A stretch of DNA of 64,000 nt, taken from the NCBI GenBank assembly GCA_021295955.1, contig JAGWBJ010000004.1, positions 32,001-96,000 on the forward strand. Direction: 5' to 3'. The stretch comes from Dehalococcoidia bacterium. Its GTDB lineage: Bacteria > Chloroflexota > Dehalococcoidia > Lucifugimonadales > JAGWBF01. The notes below the pieces were generated by a model. It saw nothing but the letters and a program-made list of their open reading frames with translations, searched no databases and was not told where the DNA came from. A program made the position numbers and the translations under genes. Shown here piece after piece: positions 25,058 through 42,240 of the stretch (its first letter is position 1; every line of letters starts with the position of its first letter).

Positions 25058-25906
25058 ATGAAGGTAGGAGTCTCATTTCCGACGGTGATCGATTCTCCGG
25101 TGGACCCCGTGGCCTTCGCTCGAAAAGCCGAGGAGGTGGGCTTCGAGTCCATGTGGGTCCCCGAGCACCCGGTCCTACCGGTGCACTCGTCCTCCAGGTT
25201 CCCCGGCTCAGCCGATGGGCGGGTCCCGGACACCTACTCCTACATGATGGACCCCTTTGTGGCCCTTTCGGCCGCCTCGGCGGTGACGACCACCCTGAAG
25301 CTGGCCACTGGGATCTGCCTGGTGCCCGAGCGCAACACCATCCTCCTGGCCAAGCTCATCGCCAGCCTGGACCACTACTCCGGGGGCAGGTTTATCTTCG
25401 GCATCGCCGCCGGTTGGCTCCGGGAGGAGACGGAGCTGATGGGCGGCGACTTCGAGCACAGGTGGACCCAGACGCGGGAGCAGGTGGAGGCGATGAAGGA
25501 GCTGTGGACCCGGGAGGAGCCCGAGTTCCACGGCAGGTACGTGGACTTCCCTTCCGTGCGCTGCTATCCCAAGCCCGTTCAGAAACCCCATCCGCCGGTC
25601 CTGCTGGGAGGCCGGGCCAGGAACGTCTTCCAGCGGGTCGTGCGTTGGGGTGACGGCTGGTTCCCCAACCGTATCACTCCTGAGGAGGTGAGGGAGGGCC
25701 GGGAAGCCCTAGACGGGCTGGCTAAGGCCGCCGGACGGGACCCGGCTTCGGTCTCGATCTCCATCTCCGGACAGTCCCCGGACCGAGACCTGATCGCGGG
25801 GTTCGGGGAGGCGGGCGCCGTCCGGGTCGTCCTGCAGGGCCAGGGCGACTCCACCCAGGGAGCCCTGCGCTGGCTGGAGGAGGCCGCCGGGAAGGTCCTG
25901 GGCTAG
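25058..25906 (+). CDS. LLM-class F420-dependent-type oxidoreductase
   Basis: 282 residues, luciferase-like fold. MKVGVSFPTVIDSPVDPVAF, FESMWVPEHPVLP, GICLVPERNTILLAK and IFGIAAGWLREETELMG are typical of the probable F420-dependent luciferase-like subfamily (TIGR03619-like). AGGAGG at 25047-25052, 5 bases before ATG 25058, fixes the start and rules out longer readings. Its stop overlaps the convergent MmgE/PrpD gene by 4 bases. The substrate is unknown. Confidence 0.9.
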   Translation: MKVGVSFPTVIDSPVDPVAFARKAEEVGFESMWVPEHPVLPVHSSSRFPGSADGRVPDTYSYMMDPFVALSAASAVTTTLKLATGICLVPERNTILLAKLIASLDHYSGGRFIFGIAAGWLREETELMGGDFEHRWTQTREQVEAMKELWTREEPEFHGRYVDFPSVRCYPKPVQKPHPPVLLGGRARNVFQRVVRWGDGWFPNRITPEEVREGREALDGLAKAAGRDPASVSISISGQSPDRDLIAGFGEAGAVRVVLQGQGDSTQGALRWLEEAAGKVLG

Positions 25907-27276
25907 GGCGACTTCACCCTCGCCATCTCCAGTATCTCCCCGATGTGGTCCACCCGCTCCAGGTGCCAGAGGCGGTCCAGGAGGGCGTCGGTGCGGTCCG
26001 GTCCCAGAAGGTCCGTGGACAGGGCCCGGAACTTGGCCTCGACTTCCCGGTCCGTCATCGGGTTCTTCCAGTGGCCGCGGTGATAGGGCACCGGCGACGA
26101 GCGGTGGCGTTCCCCGGACTTCGTCACGACCTCCACCGTTGCCAGCATGGCCTCGGGGGCGCGCCGGTTGGCCTCCTCGGTGGCGGCGACCTTCACCTTT
26201 CCGGTCAGGGCAAGGAGAGACCTGTCCCGCAGGTACTCATCGCCGAAGTGGTGCTCCTCGACGTTGCCGTAGGTCAGCGCCACCGCCACCGAGTAGGGCA
26301 TGCTGTGGTCGGCAGTCTCGCGGTTGGCCGGGCGCCACTTCTCCTCGTCACCGGCCATGATGTCGATGGCTGTCTGCAGGGTCTCCACCCGTACTTCGGC
26401 GATATCCTCGACGCTCGAGACCCTGTCCCGGACCTCCAGGGCCGCCTCGACCACGGTCTGGGAGTAGAGGCCCAGCGGGAACCCCTTGATGGTCGCCTCC
26501 ATCACCTTGAAGGGCCTGCCGTCTCCCCCGAAGGCATCCGGGCTGAAGGGGTCCCGGCTGACGGCGTTGAAAAACCCTCCGAAACCCTCGAAGACGGGGG
26601 ACGGTCCGGTCAGGCCCCGTTGGGCCATCATCGCGGCGAACACGGCGTTGCGGCTGGCGTTGGCGAAGGCGCACCCCTTCCACATGGACACGTCGCCGAT
26701 TCGCGTCTGGTAGAGGGCCACGTTGGGCGCCACACACAGGTTCACTGTCTCCTCGGTCTGCTCTCGGGTCAGGCCCATGGCCTTGGCCGCCCCCAGTCCC
26801 CCGGCCACCACTCCCAGGGTAACGTGGTCGAACCTCCGGCTGCGGACGGACACCGCGTCGCACAGGCGGCAGAAGGCCTCGTAGGCCAGGACGACGGAGG
26901 TGATCACCGTCTTCCCCCCGGCGCCGCTGACCTCGGCGGGAGACAGGACGGCGGCGATGGCGTCGCTGGGATGCCCCGACTCCAGGCTGGTGTACCCGTC
27001 GTTGAAGTCCAGGTACCGGACCATGACCCCGTTGGCGAAAGCGGCCAGGTCGGGGCTTGTCTTCCCTCCGCTGCCCAGAACCGTGGCGGGTTGGGTACTG
27101 GTGACCGTCTCCGCCATCTCCCGGGCTATTCTGCTGGGCTCGCTGTGGTAGGCGCCGATGGCGCACCCCAGGGTGTCGACGATGAGCAGCTTCGTCCGCT
27201 TCAGGGCCTCCTCGGAGATGTCCTCGTATCTCAGGGAGCGGCCGTAGGAGCTCAGGTATCGGGCTATGGTATCCAT
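25903..27276 (-). CDS. MmgE/PrpD family protein (2-methylcitrate dehydratase-like), paralogue 1
   Basis: 457 residues. Typical landmarks are DTLGCAIGAYHSEP, VRYLDFNDGYTS, the SGHPSDAIAAVL segment, SMWKGCAFANASRN and RETADHSMPYSVAVALTYG. The family contains 2-methylcitrate, cis-aconitate and iminodisuccinate-type lyases; the substrate here is undetermined. A related protein at 40864-42240 shares the same landmarks. It lies 56 bases downstream of the frameshifted NUDIX gene. Confidence 0.92.
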   Translation of the reverse strand: MDTIARYLSSYGRSLRYEDISEEALKRTKLLIVDTLGCAIGAYHSEPSRIAREMAETVTSTQPATVLGSGGKTSPDLAAFANGVMVRYLDFNDGYTSLESGHPSDAIAAVLSPAEVSGAGGKTVITSVVLAYEAFCRLCDAVSVRSRRFDHVTLGVVAGGLGAAKAMGLTREQTEETVNLCVAPNVALYQTRIGDVSMWKGCAFANASRNAVFAAMMAQRGLTGPSPVFEGFGGFFNAVSRDPFSPDAFGGDGRPFKVMEATIKGFPLGLYSQTVVEAALEVRDRVSSVEDIAEVRVETLQTAIDIMAGDEEKWRPANRETADHSMPYSVAVALTYGNVEEHHFGDEYLRDRSLLALTGKVKVAATEEANRRAPEAMLATVEVVTKSGERHRSSPVPYHRGHWKNPMTDREVEAKFRALSTDLLGPDRTDALLDRLWHLERVDHIGEILEMARVKSP

Positions 27277-28780: not shown

Positions 28781-28809
28781 TTGACAGACCCCGGTGCCTT
28801 GATTACAAT
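28781..28809 (+). promoter_or_regulatory. Consensus sigma70 promoter of the cobalamin operon
   Basis: TTGACA (28781-28786), exactly 17 bases, TACAAT (28804-28809). The start is expected near 28816, just ahead of the riboswitch. Confidence 0.85.
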
Positions 28810-28995: not shown

Positions 28996-29086
28996 TGCAT
29001 GGAGTCTTGCTCTGCGCACAACAGAGGTAGCTCCTGGGTAGCCGCTGTCCCTCTCCTACCGCCGGTTACCCAAGGCAGAAAGTCGA

Positions 29087-29116
29087 ACCCCTGGCAGCGC
29101 AGAGCCGGGGGTTTTT
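29087..29116 (+). terminator. Rho-independent terminator of the cobalamin riboswitch
   Basis: Stem ACCCCTGGC / GCCGGGGGT (9 bp, one G-U) with an 8-base loop and a run of five T at 29112-29116. The 3' arm also holds the only G-rich sequence in front of the TTG start of cobB. Confidence 0.85.
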
Positions 29117-29118
29117 CG

Positions 29119-30537
29119 TTGTCAGCCAAAAACAGTATCCCAACCTTGGTCGTCGCCGGGGTCCGCAGCGGGGTGGGCAAGACCACCATCGCCACGGGCC
29201 TCATGGCCGCGCTCACGGCCAGGGGCTACAGGGTGGGGCCGTTCAAGGCCGGGCCCGACTACATCGATCCGTCCTATCACCGCATCGCCTGCCGCGTTCC
29301 GTGCCGCAACCTGGACACCTGGCTCCTGTCCCCCGACATGGTGATCGAGCTGTTCCGTAGGGCGGCATCGCCAAGGGACGTGGCCGTGGTGGAGGGGGTC
29401 ATGGGCCTGTACGACGGCCACTCCGGCCTGGACGAGAAGGGCTCCACTGCGGAGCTGGCCAAGCTCCTGGGCGCGCCGGTGGTCCTGGTGGCCGATGCCT
29501 CCAAGGTGGCCCGCAGCGTGGCCGCCGAGGTCCTGGGATACCAGCGCTTCGACCCGGGGGTCGATATCGCCGGCGTCGTGCTCAACGGTATAGCGGGGCC
29601 GGGCCACCTGGAGTTCTGCAAACCCCAGGTGGAGGAGACTACCGGGATACCCGTGTTGGGCTACATGCCCCACCGGCAAGACCTGAGCCAGCCCGAGCGG
29701 CACCTGGGACTCATCCCCACCGTCGAGGGTACGGTGGTTCGGGACTGGTACCGGAGGCTCACGAGCCAGGTGGAGGAGACCATCGACCTGGACCGCCTCA
29801 TGACCTTGGCGTCCCGGGCCAGGCTTCCCGGCTCATCCTCCCAGGTGTTTCCCGAAGAGCCCCAGGGACCCAAGGCCCGCATCGCCGTGGCCATGGACCG
29901 TGCTTTCAGCTTCTACTACCAGGACTCCCTGGACCTGCTGGAGGCCTGGGGAGCCGAGGTCGTGCCCTTCAGCCCCCTGGAGGACCCAGAGTTGCCCGAA
30001 GGCGCCGGAGGGGTGTACATAGGCGGCGGGTTCCCCGAGATGTACGTGGAAGAGCTGTCCCGCAACACGGGCATGATCGCCTCCATACGCGATGCGGCAG
30101 CCAGGGGCATCCCCGTCTACGGGGAGTGCGGCGGCCTCATGTACCTGGGAGAGGGGCTGACGGACTTCCAGGGAGCCCTGCACCCCATGGTGGGCCTTCT
30201 GCCAGTCTCCTCGTCCATGCCGGGCAGCCGTCTGGTCCTGGGGTACCGTGAGGTGGAGGCGTTGGCCGACGGACCCCTGCTCCGGCGAGGGCAAAGGGTT
30301 AGGGGCCATGAGTTTCACTGGTCAGTCCAGGATGGAGCACCGTCCCGGGGAGACGCCGCCTACAGCGTGATCGATCAGGACGGCCGCCTGGAGGGGTTCC
30401 ATTCCGGGAATGTACTGGCGTCCTACGTGCATCTGCACATGGCCAGCGACCCGTCGCTGGCGCCCCGCTTCGTGGATGCATGCTCGGTTAAAGAGAAGGG
30501 TCGTGGACCCGTATCCTCGACGTTCACCCGGAGGTAG
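29119..30537 (+). CDS. cobB: Cobyrinate a,c-diamide synthase
   Basis: Amidates cobyrinate side chains a and c using ATP and glutamine (CobB/CbiA). The N-terminal P-loop is VAGVRSGVGKTTIA with PFKAGPDYIDP; the C-terminal class I glutaminase-like domain has its Cys in VYGECGGLMYLGEGL and a His in GHEFHWS. About 472 residues, normal. The start is the TTG at 29119, two bases after the terminator T-run; earlier codons lie within the riboswitch. It is the first gene of the B12-regulated operon. Confidence 0.94.
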   Translation: MSAKNSIPTLVVAGVRSGVGKTTIATGLMAALTARGYRVGPFKAGPDYIDPSYHRIACRVPCRNLDTWLLSPDMVIELFRRAASPRDVAVVEGVMGLYDGHSGLDEKGSTAELAKLLGAPVVLVADASKVARSVAAEVLGYQRFDPGVDIAGVVLNGIAGPGHLEFCKPQVEETTGIPVLGYMPHRQDLSQPERHLGLIPTVEGTVVRDWYRRLTSQVEETIDLDRLMTLASRARLPGSSSQVFPEEPQGPKARIAVAMDRAFSFYYQDSLDLLEAWGAEVVPFSPLEDPELPEGAGGVYIGGGFPEMYVEELSRNTGMIASIRDAAARGIPVYGECGGLMYLGEGLTDFQGALHPMVGLLPVSSSMPGSRLVLGYREVEALADGPLLRRGQRVRGHEFHWSVQDGAPSRGDAAYSVIDQDGRLEGFHSGNVLASYVHLHMASDPSLAPRFVDACSVKEKGRGPVSSTFTRR

Positions 30538-30543
30538 CTCGAC

Positions 30544-32463
30544 ATGGCGATTTGGTGCAAGGCGATGGGGCTGAGGACGTGCCGTCGGATGATCCTGACC
30601 GGCGTCCTCGCGTTTCTGCTGGCGTTGGGAATGGCCTGCGAAGGGGACCCCACCGCCGTGTTGACGGGCACCTCGCCGCCCTCCGACCAGGTCGGTCCGA
30701 CGGCGAGCCCTGGGGCGCCGTCCACGCCGGAAGCGGCGGCCACCGTGCCGGCCCCGTCCAGCCCGACGGAGGCCGCTGCCACCGCCGAGTCGGCAACGCC
30801 GCCGGCTCCCCGGCCGACCTCTCCAGCGGCTCCGGCCACGCCTTCCCCGGGACCAACCGAGACACCCTCCAGCCTTCCCCTCGTAATCACCGACAGCAAC
30901 GGCAACGACGTCATCTTCGAGGAGCCTCCCCAGCGGATCGTGGCCTACAACGCCGTTGCCGTGGAGACCCTGTTCGCCATGGGCGAGGGCCATCGGGTCG
31001 CCGGCACCCACGATTTCGTCACCTACCCCCCGGAGGCGGACGCCGTGCCCAGGGTTGGGGACGCGTTCAACGTGAACGCCGAAAAGATCCTGGAGACGGA
31101 CCCGGACCTGATATACGTCTTCTTCGCCAGCAGCTACGACCAGGTCAAGGACCTGGGGATCAAGGTGCTGTACCTGGAGAGCCCCACGACTCTGGATGGA
31201 ATTCCCCAGCGAATGCGCATGTGGGGGCAGATAACCGGGAACGTCGATGCGGCCGAGACGCTGGCGGCGGCGTACGAGGCCCGGCTCGACGCGGTACTGG
31301 GCAAGCTGTCCGCCGTGAGCCGGGGTCCCAGAATCCTCTACGATGTGGGGGGAGCCTGGACCGTTGGCCCCGACACCATAATCGGCCAGCTTCTGGACCT
31401 GTTGAAGGCGGAGAACGTTGCCGGAGACCTGGAGGGCTGGAGCCAGATAAGCCCCGAGGTGGTCGTGGAGCGAGACCCCGAGGTGATCATTACGGGCACG
31501 GCCCAGGAGTTCCTGGGCAACCCGGCCTTCCAAGACGTATCGGCGGTGAAGAGCAGGCGGCTCTATTCCGTGGAGCCTTCGGGGGTCCTCAGCGTCTTCG
31601 GCCCCAGGTTCATAGAGGGGGTCGAGGGACTTGCCCGGCTGCTTCACCCGAACGTGTTTGCCTTCCCCGCCGTGGTCACCGACAGCAACGGCAACGACGT
31701 GACGTTCGACGCTCCGCCTGAGCGCATCGTAGCCTTGACCTCGGTGGTGGTGGAGATACTATTCGCCCTGGGGGAGGGTCACCGGATAGTGGGCACCCAC
31801 GACTTCGTCTCGTATCCTCCCGAGGCCGACAGTGTCCCGCGAATGGGCACCGCGTTCCAAGTGAACACGGAGCAGGTTGTCGCGGCGGACCCGGACCTGA
31901 TATCCGTCTTCTATGCCAGCAGCTACGAGCAGGTGGAGGACCTGGGCCCCACGGTGCTGTACCTGGAGAGCCCCAGCACCCTGGACGGGATCCCGGACCG
32001 GATGCGTTTGTGGGGACGTATAACTGGGAAATGGGAAGCCGGCGAGAGGCTGGCCCTGGAGTTCGAGACCAAGCTGAACGCCATACTGGACCGGCTGGCG
32101 TCCCTGGAGCAGGGTCCCCGGCTGTTCCACGACGACTCTCTCCTCTACACCCGGGGCCCCGGTACCGTCTTAGGCCAGGTGTACGACCTGCTCAAGGTCC
32201 AGAACATCGCCCACGATATCGACCGCTATGGGCAGCTAGCCCCCGAGGTCCTGGTGGAGCGAGACCCGGAGGTGATCATCACCACGTTCCCCACCCGGGT
32301 ACAGGAGCTCATGGAGGACCCGGCATTCCAAGAGGTGTCCGCCGTAAAGAACGGCAGGGTCTACGTGGTCCAACCCGATGGGCTCGTCAGCGTCTTCGGC
32401 ACCAGGTTCATAGAGGGGATCGAGTTCCTTGCCCGGGTGATTCACCCGGACCGGTTCGAGTAA
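30544..32463 (+). CDS. Lipoprotein with two tandem BtuF-type cobalamin-binding domains
   Basis: 639 residues. A signal sequence with a lipobox-like LALGMAC (C32) is followed by an 80-residue Pro/Ala/Thr linker (about 33-112), then two homologous periplasmic-binding domains at about 114-371 and 376-639. Each begins VxTDSNGNDVxFxxPPxRIVA and repeats GEGHRxxGTHDFVxYPPEAD, YLESPxTLDGIP, PEVxVERDPEVIIT and RFIEGxExLAR. The repeat period is about 262 residues (786 bases) and is clear in DNA. Context (riboswitch, btuC, btuD) says it captures corrinoids for import. Normal BtuF has one such domain of about 260 residues. Confidence 0.9.
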   Translation: MAIWCKAMGLRTCRRMILTGVLAFLLALGMACEGDPTAVLTGTSPPSDQVGPTASPGAPSTPEAAATVPAPSSPTEAAATAESATPPAPRPTSPAAPATPSPGPTETPSSLPLVITDSNGNDVIFEEPPQRIVAYNAVAVETLFAMGEGHRVAGTHDFVTYPPEADAVPRVGDAFNVNAEKILETDPDLIYVFFASSYDQVKDLGIKVLYLESPTTLDGIPQRMRMWGQITGNVDAAETLAAAYEARLDAVLGKLSAVSRGPRILYDVGGAWTVGPDTIIGQLLDLLKAENVAGDLEGWSQISPEVVVERDPEVIITGTAQEFLGNPAFQDVSAVKSRRLYSVEPSGVLSVFGPRFIEGVEGLARLLHPNVFAFPAVVTDSNGNDVTFDAPPERIVALTSVVVEILFALGEGHRIVGTHDFVSYPPEADSVPRMGTAFQVNTEQVVAADPDLISVFYASSYEQVEDLGPTVLYLESPSTLDGIPDRMRLWGRITGKWEAGERLALEFETKLNAILDRLASLEQGPRLFHDDSLLYTRGPGTVLGQVYDLLKVQNIAHDIDRYGQLAPEVLVERDPEVIITTFPTRVQELMEDPAFQEVSAVKNGRVYVVQPDGLVSVFGTRFIEGIEFLARVIHPDRFE

Positions 32464-32473
32464 CGGCGGAGCA

Positions 32474-33598
32474 ATGAGGATAGGCCTGCCTTTCTCAATG
32501 GGAGCCACGAAAGACCGCGGGACCGCGAGGGACGGGAGCCCGGGGGCCGGAGCGCGTCCCCGGCCCTTGCACATGGTCTACCCGTGGTGGCGTCTGGCTG
32601 TCGGTCTGGTCGTGGTGGTCCTCATTGGCGTGGCGGCCCTGGGCATCGGGTCCGTGAATGTGCCTCCCCTCACCACGACGAAGATACTGGTAGACCAGAT
32701 ACCCTTCGTGGAGGTGGAGGGCGACTGGCCCAACGGCTGGAACTCCATAATCTGGAACATCCGGTTCCCCAGAGTTGTGCTGGCAGGCTTGGTGGGAGCG
32801 TGCCTGGCCATTGCGGGAGCGGCCTATCAGGGCCTGTTCCGTAACCCGTTGGCCGAGCCGGGGCTGATAGGCGTGTCCTCGGGGGCCGCACTGGGCGCCA
32901 CGGTGGTGCTGGTCACCAGTGTACCCTTCTACGTCTTCGGCTACAGCCTGCTGCCCATAGCCGCCTTCGCGGGAGGGATCGTGACGGTAGCCGTGGCCTA
33001 CACCGTGTCCAGGCAGTCCAACGGCGTGCCCCTCCTTACGCTGATCCTGGCGGGGGTGGCCATCGCCTCCCTGGCCACCGCGGTATCGAGCCTTCTGATG
33101 ATACGCAGCGACCCCGATGTTCGGCCTCTGCTCTCCTGGCTCCTGGGCGGAGGCCTGATATCATCCCAGTGGGACGACATCTACCTGCTGCTGCCCTATC
33201 TGGTGGTGGGAGCCCTGATTCTCTTGGGGTACAGCCGTATTCTCAACACCTTCCAGGTAAACGAGGAGGAGGCCAAGCAGCTTGGAGTAAATGTGGAAAA
33301 GACCAAGATCGTCCTCGTCGTGGTGGCAACCCTCATAACGGCCGCCTCCGTATCGGTGGCCGGGATAGTGGGTTTCGTGGGGCTCATAGCTCCACACGCG
33401 GTGAGGCTGATATGGGGGCAGGACAATCGCTTTCTGCTGCCCATGGCCATGCTTGCGGGCGCGGGATTCATGATAGCGGCCGACCTGATAGGCCGGACCA
33501 TAGCCAATCCCAGTGAGCTGCCCGTGGGGGTCGTGACATCCTTCTGCGGGGCGCCCTTCTTCCTCTATCTCTTGCGACAGCGGAGGGTCGTGCTTTGA
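32474..33598 (+). CDS. btuC: Cobalamin ABC transporter permease (FecCD/BtuC family)
   Basis: 374 residues, about ten membrane spans after a roughly 35-residue cytosolic N-terminus. Landmarks are RNPLAEPGLIGVSSGAALGA, LLGGGLISSQWDD and VGFVGLIAPHAVRLIWGQDN, the loop contacting the ATPase. The start is ATG 32474; a later ATG (MVYPWWRL) just before the first span is possible. Its stop overlaps the TTG start of btuD by 4 bases. Confidence 0.94.
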   Translation: MRIGLPFSMGATKDRGTARDGSPGAGARPRPLHMVYPWWRLAVGLVVVVLIGVAALGIGSVNVPPLTTTKILVDQIPFVEVEGDWPNGWNSIIWNIRFPRVVLAGLVGACLAIAGAAYQGLFRNPLAEPGLIGVSSGAALGATVVLVTSVPFYVFGYSLLPIAAFAGGIVTVAVAYTVSRQSNGVPLLTLILAGVAIASLATAVSSLLMIRSDPDVRPLLSWLLGGGLISSQWDDIYLLLPYLVVGALILLGYSRILNTFQVNEEEAKQLGVNVEKTKIVLVVVATLITAASVSVAGIVGFVGLIAPHAVRLIWGQDNRFLLPMAMLAGAGFMIAADLIGRTIANPSELPVGVVTSFCGAPFFLYLLRQRRVVL

Positions 33599-34410
33599 GC
33601 GTTCAACCTCCCTTGAAAGCGACGGGGATAGGGTTCTCCTACGGCCAACGCCCCGTCCTGCATGATATAGACCTGGAGGCGGAGACCGGAGAGGCCATCG
33701 GCATCGTGGGTCCCAACGGGTCCGGCAAGACCACCCTGCTGAGGATAGTCGGTGGCACCCTGACCCCCGGACAAGGCGATGTCTACGTACGGGGAGAGAG
33801 ACTGCCCTCCCTGCGGCCCAGGGACCGGGCGCGACTGGTGGCCATGGTGCAGCAGAGTCCGGCGGTGCCGCCCGGCTTCTCTGCACTGGAAGTGGTCCTG
33901 ATGGGCAGGAACCCCTATCTGGGGCTGCTCCAGTGGGAGGGGCAGAGGGACATGGACGTATGCCAGGAGGTGATGGAGTTGACCGAGACGTGGGAGTACG
34001 CCGCCCGCCCCGTCTCCACCCTGTCGGGCGGCGAGCTGCAAAGGGTGTTCATCGCCCGGGCCCTGGCGCAGCAGACACCCGTGCTCATTCTAGATGAGCC
34101 CACCTCCCACCTGGACATCAGCTACCAGACCTCCGTCATGGACATGATAGAGAGAATTCGCAGGAAGACGCGGATAACCGTCCTGGCAGCCATGCACGAC
34201 CTGAGCCTGGCAGCCCAGTATTGCAGCCGGATCGTTGCCCTCCACCAGGGGACCATCGTTGCCTCCGGAGAGCCCTCGGAGGTGCTCACGGTGGACGTGG
34301 TCTCCAGGGTCTTCGGCGCTCCAGTCTCCGTGATAGAGCACCCCATCCACAAGACGCCGGTGATACTCCCCTTGGGGCAGGTTGCGAACGGGAGGGAGAG
34401 GGTCGGCTAG
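33595..34410 (+). CDS. btuD: Cobalamin ABC transporter ATP-binding protein
   Basis: 271 residues. Walker A is GIVGPNGSGKTTLLR, the ABC signature LSGGELQRVFIARALAQ, Walker B VLILDEPTSHLD and the switch His is in LAAMHDLSLA. It powers import through BtuC. TTG at 33595 overlaps the btuC stop as TTGA, so translation is coupled. Confidence 0.94.
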   Translation: MSVQPPLKATGIGFSYGQRPVLHDIDLEAETGEAIGIVGPNGSGKTTLLRIVGGTLTPGQGDVYVRGERLPSLRPRDRARLVAMVQQSPAVPPGFSALEVVLMGRNPYLGLLQWEGQRDMDVCQEVMELTETWEYAARPVSTLSGGELQRVFIARALAQQTPVLILDEPTSHLDISYQTSVMDMIERIRRKTRITVLAAMHDLSLAAQYCSRIVALHQGTIVASGEPSEVLTVDVVSRVFGAPVSVIEHPIHKTPVILPLGQVANGRERVG

Positions 34411-34471: not shown

Positions 34472-35041
34472 GTGACACGGGCGGAGGAGATCGAAAGACA
34501 CCAGCCTGTAAGGGGGCCCAGGGTCAAGAAGGGCCTGGTGATCGTCAATACGGGGGACGGCAAGGGCAAGACCACCGCCGCCATGGGTGTGCTGTTCCGC
34601 GCCTGGGGCAGGGACATGCGGGTCGTCATGCTCCAGTTCATCAAGCACACCACCGCCAGATTCGGCGAGCAGCGGGCCGCCAAGAAGATCGGGGTGGACA
34701 TCCTGGCCTACGGGGACGGCTTTACTTGGCGGTCCAAGGACATGGACCGCACCCAGGAGATGGCCCGTATTCAGTGGAACGTGGCCAAGGAGAAGATCGC
34801 CTCGGGCCTGTACGACGTGGTCATCCTCGATGAGTTCACCTACCCAATGCACTACGGCTGGATACCGGTCGCGGAAGTGCTGGAGGTCCTGAAGGCCCGC
34901 AACCCGGACCTGCACGTCATCATCACCGGCCGCAGCGCCCCGCCGGAGCTGGTGGAGTATGCTGACTTGGTAACCGAGATGAGGGCGATCAAGCACCCGT
35001 ACCAGGAGGGGATCAAGGCCCAGCCCGGCATCGAGTTCTAG
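34472..35041 (+). CDS. cobO: Cob(I)yrinic acid a,c-diamide adenosyltransferase, CobA/CobO type
   Basis: 189 residues of the P-loop adenosyltransferase family: GLVIVNTGDGKGKTTAAMG with the Walker A GDGKGKTT, VMLQFIKH, and VVILDEFTYPMHYGW. It attaches the 5'-deoxyadenosyl ligand to corrinoids. The start is GTG 34472 with GGAGG upstream. It is unrelated in fold to the PduO-type enzyme at 15065; here its place in the riboswitch operon points to corrinoid synthesis and salvage. Confidence 0.95.
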   Translation: MTRAEEIERHQPVRGPRVKKGLVIVNTGDGKGKTTAAMGVLFRAWGRDMRVVMLQFIKHTTARFGEQRAAKKIGVDILAYGDGFTWRSKDMDRTQEMARIQWNVAKEKIASGLYDVVILDEFTYPMHYGWIPVAEVLEVLKARNPDLHVIITGRSAPPELVEYADLVTEMRAIKHPYQEGIKAQPGIEF

Positions 35042-35148: not shown

Positions 35149-35865
35149 TTGTTGCGGCCCGACGGTTCCCACGGAGGGGGCGGGGAGGCCCATCGCTTGC
35201 TGATGGTCCGGCACGGCGAGACGCCGTGGAACCTGGAGGGCAGGATTCAGGGCCACACCGACGTGCCCCTGTCCGAGAAGGGCCGCGCCCAGGCGGCCTT
35301 GCTGGCCCGCCGGATTGCCCGGCTCCAGGTCCACGCCGCCTACGCCAGCGACCTGACCCGGACCATGCACACCGCGGAGTCGGTGCTGGCCGGGCGGGAG
35401 GTGGCCCCTTCGCCCGTACCGGAGCTGCGGGAGTTCTCCTACGGCCGCTGGGAGGGCATGACCCACTGGGAGGTGGAGCGTGAGGACCCGGCGGCATACG
35501 CCGACATGATGACCCGCCGGCCGGACTTCGTTCCCCCCGGGGGCGAGAGCCTGCACCAGGTCAGGGCCAGGGTCTGCGGGTTCGCCTCGGGCCTCCGCGA
35601 CGCCATGTTCTCAGGAGACCCCGGCGGTTTCCGGGGTCACTCCCTGGCCGGGCCGCGTGGAGGCGGGGGCAGCGTCGTCCTGGTCGTGGGCCACGGAGGG
35701 TCGCTCAGGGCCCTGCTGGTCTGCCTGCTGGGCCTGCCGGTGTCCGTGGTGTGGAGCCTCTGGCTGGACACCGCCAGCCTGACCATCGTCGACCTGTACC
35801 CGGACAACGCGGTCATGAAGCTGTTCAACGATACGTCGCATCTGAGGGGAGACGAGGGGCCGTGA
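35149..35865 (+). CDS. cobC: Histidine phosphatase, probable alpha-ribazole phosphatase
   Basis: 238 residues. RHGETPWN near residue 21 is the catalytic His motif, with ASDLTRTMHTAES and the second His in [12 protein letters not shown]. By context it would dephosphorylate alpha-ribazole phosphate or a cobalamin phosphate. The start is TTG 35149 with GGGGGAGGG 5 bases upstream. An insertion of about 20 Gly-rich residues lies before the second His. Its stop overlaps the cobQ start as GTGA. Assignment within the phosphoglycerate-mutase-like family rests on neighbours. Confidence 0.85.
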   Translation: MLRPDGSHGGGGEAHRLLMVRHGETPWNLEGRIQGHTDVPLSEKGRAQAALLARRIARLQVHAAYASDLTRTMHTAESVLAGREVAPSPVPELREFSYGRWEGMTHWEVEREDPAAYADMMTRRPDFVPPGGESLHQVRARVCGFASGLRDAMFSGDPGGFRGHSLAGPRGGGGSVVLVVGHGGSLRALLVCLLGLPVSVVWSLWLDTASLTIVDLYPDNAVMKLFNDTSHLRGDEGP

Positions 35866-37415
35866 CAGCCAGGGTGCTGATGGTCCAGGGTACCGCATCC
35901 CACGTGGGCAAGAGCGTGCTGGTGGCGGCCCTCTGCCGGATACTCCGCCAGGACGGCTACAGGGTCGCGCCCTTCAAGGCCCAGAACATGTCCAACAACT
36001 CCTACGTGACCCCCGAAGGTGGCGAGATAGGTCGTGCCCAGGCGGTGCAAGCCGAGGCTGCGGGCATCGAGCCGTCGGTGGAGATGAACCCTGTCCTCCT
36101 CAAACCCGAGGCCGACAGCCGGTCCCAGATAGTGCTCCTGGGAAGGCCCCAGGGCTCGGCAGGCGGCTCCTACTTCGCCCAGGTCAAGCCAAGGTTGTGG
36201 CAGGCCATCTCCACGTCCCTGGACAGCCTGCGGGACCAGTACGACGTGGTCGTCATAGAAGGCGCGGGGAGCCCCGCCGAGATAAACCTGAAGCAACACG
36301 AGATCGTGAACATGCGCGTGGCCCGCTACTGCGGCGCCCCCGTGCTGCTGGTGGGCGACATCGACCGGGGCGGCATATTCGCCTCCCTGGTCGGCACCAT
36401 GGAGCTGCTGGACCCGGAGGAGCGTGACTGCGTCAAGGGGTTCGTCGTCAACAAGTTCAGAGGCAACGTGGACCTGCTGAAGCCGGGCCTGGCGTTCCTC
36501 GAGGAGAGGACCGGGGTCCCCGTGGCCGGGGTGGTCCCATACTACTACGACATCGACATACCCGAGGAGGACGCGGTGCCCCTGGACGAGCGGCGCCGGA
36601 TGAAGGAGCGGACGGACTACCTGCTGGACATCGCCGTCATCGGGTTCCCCCACATCTCCAACTTCGACGACTTCGACCCCCTGGTGCGGGAGCCGAGCGT
36701 CAGGCTGCGGTACGTGGAGGCCCATGACGAGCTGGGCCGCCCGGACATGGTGGTCCTCCCGGGAACCAAGACCACCGTTCGCGACCTGGAGTGGATGCGG
36801 GAGCAGGGCTTCGCCCATCGCCTCCGGCAGCTCGCCGACGACGGGGTGGCCGTGGTGGGTATATGCGGCGGCTACCAGATGCTGGGAGATCTGATCCTGG
36901 ACCCCCAGGGAATCGAGGCCGCCGAGCCCCGGACCCGAGGGCTGGAGCTCCTGCCGGTGACCACCGTCTTCGAAGGTACCAAGGAGACCTCCAGGGTGAC
37001 GGGGGAGGTAACGGGCTCAGCCGGTCTTCTGGGGAGGGCGACGGGCACGATCCTCAAGGGCTACGAGATACACATGGGCAGGACATTCCCATCGCCGGGG
37101 GGCCGGGAGCCCATCGGCCGTGCACCTTTCCTCCTGAAGGAGCGTTCCGGCCTTCCCGTGGAGCACCTGGACGGGGCTGCGGACTCGGCGGGCATGGTGC
37201 TGGGTACCTACCTCCACGGTCTCTTCTACAACCGGGGTGTCCGTGACTCTGTGCTCGGGGCCCTGGCGGAGCGGAAGGGGGTCTCCCTGCCCGAGTCCGG
37301 CGGGGACGCCCCCCACTCCAACGACACCGAGTACGACAAGCTGGCGGCCCTGGTCAGGAGCAGCCTGCGCATGGACCTGGTCTACGGCATGATGGGACTG
37401 CAGGCCGCCCCTTAG
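35862..37415 (+). CDS. cobQ: Cobyric acid synthase
   Basis: Amidates the remaining b, d, e and g carboxylates of adenosylcobyrinate diamide. The N-terminal VQGTASHVGKS P-loop, PFKAQNMSNNSYVT, LLVGDIDRGGIFASLVGT and VVLPGTKTT are diagnostic; the glutaminase Cys is in VVGICGGYQMLG and the His in GYEIHMGRT. About 517 residues. GTG 35862 overlaps the phosphatase stop. It is the last gene of the riboswitch operon. Genes for ring formation and the lower ligand (cobD, cobS, cobT, cobU) are not in the window. Confidence 0.95.
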   Translation: MTARVLMVQGTASHVGKSVLVAALCRILRQDGYRVAPFKAQNMSNNSYVTPEGGEIGRAQAVQAEAAGIEPSVEMNPVLLKPEADSRSQIVLLGRPQGSAGGSYFAQVKPRLWQAISTSLDSLRDQYDVVVIEGAGSPAEINLKQHEIVNMRVARYCGAPVLLVGDIDRGGIFASLVGTMELLDPEERDCVKGFVVNKFRGNVDLLKPGLAFLEERTGVPVAGVVPYYYDIDIPEEDAVPLDERRRMKERTDYLLDIAVIGFPHISNFDDFDPLVREPSVRLRYVEAHDELGRPDMVVLPGTKTTVRDLEWMREQGFAHRLRQLADDGVAVVGICGGYQMLGDLILDPQGIEAAEPRTRGLELLPVTTVFEGTKETSRVTGEVTGSAGLLGRATGTILKGYEIHMGRTFPSPGGREPIGRAPFLLKERSGLPVEHLDGAADSAGMVLGTYLHGLFYNRGVRDSVLGALAERKGVSLPESGGDAPHSNDTEYDKLAALVRSSLRMDLVYGMMGLQAAP

Positions 37416-40726: not shown

Positions 40727-40768
40727 GGTAGCCCGGCCTCGGCGGGGCTTCGCCGGGACCGCGCGGGG

Positions 40769-40777
40769 TGTTACAAT
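40769..40777 (+). promoter_or_regulatory. Extended -10 promoter (TGTTACAAT) of the MmgE/PrpD gene
   Basis: TGn-TACAAT at 40769-40777 without a good -35. It is back to back with the amidohydrolase promoter and is followed at once by the tandem repeat. Confidence 0.5.
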
Positions 40778-40782
40778 GGTTT

Positions 40783-40827
40783 CGTACCCGGGGGCCTCGT
40801 ACCCGGGGGCCTCGTATCCGGGCGGCC
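40783..40827 (+). repeat. 15-bp tandem repeats in the 5' leader
   Basis: CGTACCCGGGGGCCT occurs twice exactly (40783-40797, 40798-40812), with a third diverged unit to 40827. It lies 5 bases after the extended -10. Confidence 0.8.
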
Positions 40828-40863
40828 CGCAGGCTCGGGACGCCTTGGAATAGGAACGGCGAT

Positions 40864-42240
40864 ATGGACGCGACGGCGCGCCGCATCAGCGACTATACTG
40901 TCCGGTTGGAGTACTCCCATCTGCCCCCGGAGACGGTCCATCAGGCCAAGCGGAGGATCATAGACGCCCTGGGGTGCGCCATGGGAGGCTACGGCAGCGA
41001 GCCGGCCAGGATCGCCCGCCGCCTGGCCTCCCGGACCCGTGGCTCACCTCCCGCCACCGTCCTTGGCGGCGGTCCGGCCACCTCTCCCGAGATGGCGGCC
41101 TTCGCGAACACGGTCATGCTGCGGTACTTGGACTGCAACGACACCTTCGTATCCGCGGGCACGGGGCATCCCAGCGACATGGTCCCCGCAGTGCTGGCCG
41201 CCTGTGAGATTGCCGGGGGTCCGGGCAAGACACTCATCACCGGCACGGTCCTCGCCTACGAGGTCTGCGGCAGGTTCTCCGAAAGGGTCTCCATCGACGG
41301 GCAGGGTTGGGACCAGGGCATCTTTTCGGTCATCGGGGCGGCCTGCGGCGCGGCCAAGGCGTTGGGCCTGTCGAGGGAGCAGACGGCCCACGCCGTCTCC
41401 ATGGCGGTGGTCCCCAATCTGCCCCTACGCCACACCAGGGCCGGGGAGCTCTCCATGTGGAAGGGGTGCGCCACCGCGGCGGCCACGCGCAACGGGGTGT
41501 TCTCGGCCCTCCTGGCCCAGGAGGGGTTGGAGGGACCTTTCGAGCCCTTCGAGGGCAGGCACGGTCTGTACGAGCAGGCCACCGGCCCCATCGACCTGGG
41601 GGAGTTCGGCCCCGGCGGCGGGCCGTTCAAGTTGGACCAGACCAGCCTCAAGTTCTACCCCTCCCAGATACACACTCAGGGGCCCGTGGCCCTGGCCCTG
41701 GAGCTGAGGACACGGGTCGGTCCAGAGGACGTCGCGGCCATCAACCTGGAGACGTACCGGACGGCCTGGCACAGCGCCGGCAGGGAGCCGGAGAAGTGGG
41801 ACCCCAAGACCCGGGAGACCGCCGACCACAGCCTGCCCTACATGATATCCGTGGCCTTTCGCGACGGCCGGGTCGGCGCCGACAGCTTTACGCCGGAACA
41901 GGTCCTGGACCCGGCGCTGCGTCCCCTGATGAGGAAGGTCCACGTCAGCGAGGCCCCGGCCTTCACCGCCCGCTACCCTGCGGAGCAGCCGGGACGCATG
42001 GAGGTGGTGAGCCGCTCCGGAGAGCGGTTCTACGCCGAGACGTCCTACCCCAAGGGGCACCCCATGAACCCCCTGACCGATGGCGAGCTGGAGGACAAGT
42101 TCCACGGCCTCGCCAGCGGTGTCCTTGTGAAGGAGCAACGTGACCGCGCCCTGGAGGCCTTGTGGGGCCTGGAGCGGGTCGACGAGATCGGACCGCTCCT
42201 GGGACTGTTCCGGTGTGACGGAGAGGGCGGGGAGCGGTGA
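40864..42240 (+). CDS. MmgE/PrpD family protein, paralogue 2
   Basis: 458 residues with the family landmarks DALGCAMGGYGSEP, LRYLDCNDTFVS, GTGHPSDMVPAVLA, SMWKGCATAAATRN and RETADHSLPYMISVAF. It is clearly related to the protein at 25903-27276 but diverges around residues 225-270. The role is probably dehydration or isomerisation of a tricarboxylate-like acid. AGGA lies 8 bases before ATG 40864. Its stop overlaps the next gene, which encodes a small cysteine-cluster protein. Confidence 0.92.
   Translation: MDATARRISDYTVRLEYSHLPPETVHQAKRRIIDALGCAMGGYGSEPARIARRLASRTRGSPPATVLGGGPATSPEMAAFANTVMLRYLDCNDTFVSAGTGHPSDMVPAVLAACEIAGGPGKTLITGTVLAYEVCGRFSERVSIDGQGWDQGIFSVIGAACGAAKALGLSREQTAHAVSMAVVPNLPLRHTRAGELSMWKGCATAAATRNGVFSALLAQEGLEGPFEPFEGRHGLYEQATGPIDLGEFGPGGGPFKLDQTSLKFYPSQIHTQGPVALALELRTRVGPEDVAAINLETYRTAWHSAGREPEKWDPKTRETADHSLPYMISVAFRDGRVGADSFTPEQVLDPALRPLMRKVHVSEAPAFTARYPAEQPGRMEVVSRSGERFYAETSYPKGHPMNPLTDGELEDKFHGLASGVLVKEQRDRALEALWGLERVDEIGPLLGLFRCDGEGGER

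Follow-up and report, generated by a model that had tools for sequence, protein, structure and literature searches.

In the current understanding of BtuCD-class type II importers, each transporter works with one binding protein. The binding protein BtuF docks on BtuC by Glu-Arg contacts, one Glu per lobe (PMC3741162), and in E. coli BtuF six residues (Y50, W66, W85, F162, F168 and W196) contact cobalamin (PMC5269720). Among type I importers, tandem substrate-binding domains (SBDs) have a precedent, for example in GlnPQ (PMC8025302). A direct description of a two-domain BtuF, or of a tandem Peripla_BP_2 protein, was not found in the literature that we searched, which covered few subscription papers. 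Here, we describe a cobalamin operon in which a single polypeptide carries two BtuF-type domains. The operon is located in a stretch of 64,000 nt, which was analysed as a whole and is referred to as the window, on contig C21 (174 kb) of the draft genome of a Chloroflexota bacterium (2.56 Mb, 88% complete, 7% contamination). Its closest named relatives are MAGs of SAR202 and other Dehalococcoidia.

The respective gene (30544-32463, plus strand, as are all genes of the operon) encodes 639 aa in a single frame with zero internal stops and is annotated as a putative tandem-domain BtuF-like substrate-binding lipoprotein, based on the ORF, its translation, Pfam and BLASTP. A hydrophobic signal peptide (30544-30639) ends in LALGMAC with the lipobox-like Cys32, and is followed by a Pro/Ala/Thr-rich tether of about 80 residues (residues 33-112; 30640-30879). 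The lipobox-like Cys and the tether had been described in the sequence-only reading of the locus and are indeed present, and relatives are laid out alike; the context of the cysteine (LALGMAC-EGD) resembles a lipobox only loosely, and we consider the protein to be probably lipid-anchored. Domain A (residues 113-372; 30880-31659) and domain B (residues 375-639; 31666-32460) share 60% identity and 81% positives (BLASTP, E=4e-121), which confirms the proposal of two homologous domains in one chain. Peripla_BP_2 (PF01497) matched the ORF twice (202.1 bits over two stretches, 1.1e-59 in all), and each domain alone passed the gathering score (97.9 and 110 bits, cut-off 27.5). The repeat is also visible in the DNA, with 75% nucleotide identity in blocks of 300 and 155 nt and 70% in a block of 128 nt. 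Its period is not the 786 nt reported before but 789 nt, and 798 nt toward the 3' end owing to three inserted codons in domain B. A passes into B in frame and precisely at the domain boundary, with neither the signal peptide nor the linker repeated, and about 8 residues separate the last helix of A from the first strand of B. The duplication is likely to represent an internal, in-frame copy of a single SBD, placed behind the signal peptide and tether of the ancestor.

As had been proposed, the tandem protein is part of a cobalamin operon, with a riboswitch in front and cob and btu genes on the same strand. A sigma70-type promoter (TTGACA-17-TACAAT, 28781-28809, plus strand, 11 of 12 consensus matches) is located just before a cobalamin riboswitch aptamer (RF00174, 28827-29008, plus strand, full model 1-189, 106.5 bits, cut-off 31.5), and a hairpin resembling an intrinsic terminator, including the U run (29085-29114, plus strand, z -3.1), is the likely expression platform. 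The first gene is cobB/cbiA, encoding cobyrinic acid a,c-diamide synthase (29119-30537; NF002204, 526 bits, cut-off 254). Its start is more likely to be the TTG at 29119, directly past the hairpin, than the listed ATG at 28999, because the latter falls inside the riboswitch and homology to CobB starts only at about residue 48. The tandem btuF is followed by btuC (FecCD-family permease, 32474-33598) and btuD (ABC ATPase, 33595-34410), both assigned by family profile matches, cobO/btuR (corrinoid adenosyltransferase, 34472-35041, above the curated cut-off), a gene for a histidine phosphatase resembling alpha-ribazole phosphatase (CobC-like, 35149-35865, under the equivalog cut-off) and cobQ/cbiP (cobyric acid synthase, 35751-37415; NF001989, 630.7 bits, cut-off 273), whose true start is probably downstream of the listed GTG. 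The order btuF-btuC-btuD is constant among the Chloroflexota relatives, and RF00174 was found just upstream of btuF in 13 of the 14 orthologue loci tested in other genomes. Two MmgE/PrpD-family genes flank the operon (25903-27276, minus strand, and 40768-42240, plus strand).

Despite the presence of cobB, cobO and cobQ, de novo synthesis of the corrin ring is probably absent, as judged from an incomplete genome: searches of the 88% that is covered yielded neither CbiC (PF02570) nor any corrin-ring methylase, and the two TP_methylase-family matches represent a uroporphyrinogen-III methyltransferase/synthase fusion and a 16S rRNA methylase. Corrinoid uptake therefore probably matters to this bacterium.

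Because the relatives in the full-length alignment all aligned to domain A, the two domains were folded separately; both were modelled with high confidence by AlphaFold (mean pLDDT 94.8 for A and 96.9 for B), each as a class III substrate-binding protein (SBP). In Foldseek searches A and B alike matched BtuF of V. cholerae (5ysc) and E. coli (1n2z, 1n4a) as well as heme SBPs (E ~1e-15 to 1e-19), which bears out the earlier assignment of both halves as BtuF-type. The docking glutamates, corresponding to residues 72 and 202 of the E. coli BtuF precursor (the former named Glu74 in PMC3741162), are E180 and E305 in A and E443 and E568 in B, and they are invariant in all 46 aligned rows (A, B and 44 relatives). 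On the transporter side, Arg97, Arg100 and Arg341 of BtuC align with Arg56, Arg59 and Arg295 of E. coli BtuC, and these partner arginines are kept in this BtuC and in 29 of 29 relatives. In an alignment to E. coli BtuF at about 20% identity, which is uncertain in places, the six cleft positions correspond to F158, A174, F193, V268, W272 and W299 in A and to F421, A437, F456, D531, Y535 and Y562 in B. Neither half lacks a cleft or the docking residues. At the position equivalent to W66, A and B as well as 40 of 42 relatives have Ala. In E. coli BtuF, the W66A exchange results in a KD of 1.8 uM for cobinamide and hardly affects cobalamin binding (PMC5269720). Taken at face value, this position predicts that both heads prefer complete cobamides; a neighbouring conserved Phe could substitute. 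In B, Tyr535 replaces a Trp that is conserved in 41 of 42 relatives, and Asp531 occupies another cleft position; the cleft of B could be weakened by these two residues. The tandem protein stays under the cut-off of the BtuF equivalog NF002894 (105.9 vs 234 bits), as does its relative L059/L092. It also falls short of the haloarchaeal PGF-CTERM-anchored SBP family (TIGR04281; 285 bits across both domains against a cut-off of 325), and no C-terminal PGF anchor or other extension was found beyond domain B. The corrinoid assignment is fixed far better by the riboswitch and the operon context than by the sequence of the protein.

Because the protein has two complete class III domains that each retain the docking glutamates, BtuC has the partner arginines and a cobalamin riboswitch precedes the operon, we favor the interpretation that the tandem protein is a bivalent BtuF feeding one BtuC2D2, with a probability of roughly 70%. 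When B12 is scarce, the riboswitch would permit transcription of the operon, and the lipid-anchored protein would expose two heads for corrinoid binding at the end of a long, flexible tether, which would let it reach the transporter. The BtuC homodimer has one docking face, and one head can be served at a time, as is established for BtuCD-F. Since there is one such face, the heads would dock singly and in turn on the single homodimeric BtuC2D2, while the undocked head could hold a second ligand, i.e. two ligands per protein.

The divergence between A and B is distributed unevenly. Their identity (A numbering) is 71% at residues 113-232, the N-lobe, drops to 39% at 233-302 (backbone helix plus first half of the C-lobe) and is 64% at 303-372. 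The segment 233-302 holds three of the six cleft positions, namely those aligned with E. coli F162, F168 and W196. The drop from 113-232 to 233-302 is larger than in all 946 ortholog pairs, and the ratio of dN in the middle segment to dN in the N-lobe (2.99) is above all 297 ortholog pairs in range; the segments were picked after viewing the identity profile. The dN/dS values in the three segments are about 0.2, 0.87 and 0.43, and the distance at fourfold sites is 0.82 for the whole alignment, 1.19 for the N-lobe and 0.34 for the middle segment (16 sites), these synonymous estimates being rough owing to few sites and 85% GC3. From the low dN/dS of the N-lobe it can be argued that both copies are under selection. 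The two halves had been suggested to owe their similarity either to a fairly recent duplication or to gene conversion. The fourfold sites, diverged by about 0.8 per site, show that the duplication cannot be very recent, nor is the pattern explained by gene conversion, which would predict less, not more, synonymous divergence in the N-lobe than in the middle segment. The simplest reading of the alignments is that purifying selection acts on the N-lobe and that the middle segment would have changed fast.

A and B form a pair in the full-length tree (support 92/84), with the nearest relative L059 next (99/95). The segment trees disagree, with 113-232 giving (A,B) and 233-372 giving (B,L059), and AU tests reject neither placement (p 0.54 and 0.42), so that a duplication before and one after the split from L059 are both compatible with the trees.

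The clefts have drifted apart on the C-lobe side, so that unequal affinity or ligand preference is plausible. One alternative, which we regard as possible though rather doubtful, goes further and holds that A and B are specialised for different corrinoids, e.g. complete cobamides differing in the lower ligand, or incomplete corrinoids, and share one BtuCD. Both the identity drop and the dN ratio beyond the ortholog pairs are in line with such a specialisation, as are the corrinoid-modifying enzymes encoded in the operon and the precedent of GlnPQ, in which two SBDs share one transporter (PMC8025302). However, the Ala equivalent to W66 is found in both domains, so no split between cobinamide and cobalamin is predicted at that position. 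In addition, drift under relaxed constraint could equally explain the changes; the divergence pattern is suggestive only of functional divergence of the clefts. The related proposal that two distinct corrinoid heads on one lipoprotein may compete for one BtuCD, with the cleft and not the docking face having diverged, is put forward as tentative.

In a further alternative, one head could be decaying, i.e. B (or A) would have lost ligand binding and be kept as a spacer or be about to be lost. The dN/dS near 1 in part of the middle segment, the long branches of both copies there and the loss of the near-invariant Trp in B would fit such a decay, which we nevertheless consider unlikely: both domains retain the docking glutamates, mostly aromatic cleft positions and confident full folds, the N-lobe has a dN/dS of 0.2, and there is neither a frameshift nor a stop.

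An assembly chimera of btuF genes from two strains is very improbable. The incompleteness and contamination of the draft genome and the fact that the gene of the closest relative is cut by a contig end leave some room for it, but several observations argue against it: the domains are joined in frame precisely where they meet, neither signal peptide nor linker is repeated, A groups with B in the full-length tree and the rest of the operon is intact. Just as improbable is a ligand such as heme or an iron complex instead of a corrinoid; heme and iron SBPs are indeed among the Foldseek and sequence matches, but the cobalamin riboswitch, the cob genes in the operon and the order riboswitch-btuF-btuC-btuD conserved in relatives oppose this. 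A mere assembly duplicate is ruled out, as the copies differ along their whole length in DNA and the junction is in frame.

Recurrence of the architecture in other Chloroflexota had been named as a line of support, but no second BtuF tandem was found among the relatives. Among about 70 non-redundant relatives, from GTDB genomes and a further genome set, every complete one is single-domain, and a Pfam survey at the level of the phylum, class and order (about 275 genomes) revealed two-domain frames in 2 genomes among the matches listed. The BtuF tandem thus occurs in one genome only among the relatives and genomes searched. The gene of L059 (genome G035) runs off the contig end after one domain and is not assessable as a second tandem, and the long frames of other matches (e.g. 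L036, L050, G182) contain one domain each. The second genome with a two-domain frame, G231 of the same order, encodes a tandem Peripla_BP_2 protein (L095:4570-6438, 622 aa, halves 45% identical) of the iron dicitrate/enterobactin type; genes for two FecCD permeases and an ABC ATPase lie downstream. This tandem represents an independent event, and tandem class III SBPs arise occasionally in this order.

Two further arrangements were observed among BtuF-like genes. MAGs of Desulfobulbus (L083:3545-5246) and Rhodocyclaceae (L084:4662-6621) contain two adjacent btuF-like ORFs with overlapping ends, which are separate genes. A BtuF-like SBP of the same order as our genome (L093, located at G000:C9:17470-18243, and L102-L112) has one in-frame TGA within a CxxU/CxxC motif, at a position where sister genes encode Cys (TGA in 12 genes, Cys in 6); it is likely a selenocysteine SBP and matches the entry 'BtuF cd01144 CxxU' in PMC13188914.

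With two BtuF domains linked covalently, a natural protein becomes available for studying whether an additional head on the same anchor makes ligand handover faster or widens the range of corrinoids, and the A/B pair allows comparison of a B12 cleft that changes while the docking face stays constant. Compared with BtuF of E. coli and V. cholerae (PF01497, type II importer BtuCD-F), the tandem protein shares the fold, the docking glutamates, the BtuC and BtuD partners and the cobalamin context. It differs from both in having two domains per chain, in being probably lipid-anchored via a long tether and in its score under the NCBIfam BtuF cut-off, and from E. coli BtuF in its cleft residues, most of which are substituted (F for Y50, A for W66, F for W85). 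The BtuF orthologues of SAR202 and other Dehalococcoidia (e.g. L053-L082) are about 35-57% identical to a domain and share the signal peptide and tether, the order btuF-btuC-btuD and the upstream riboswitch; unlike the tandem, they are single-domain, and at our locus cobB sits between the riboswitch and btuF. As in the type I importer GlnPQ, two tandem SBDs joined by a short link (14 residues in GlnPQ, about 8 here) would share one transporter. In GlnPQ, however, the SBDs belong to SBP cluster F-IV, bind amino acids and are fused to the permease, whereas the class III protein described here is separate from its permease, which is an ORF of its own (32474-33598). If the heads are distinct, the tandem would be a B12 counterpart of GlnPQ among type II importers. 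Finally, the G231 tandem resembles it in belonging to the same order, in carrying two class III domains per chain and in adjoining FecCD permeases and an ATPase, but it is an iron dicitrate/enterobactin-type SBP that arose in a separate event.
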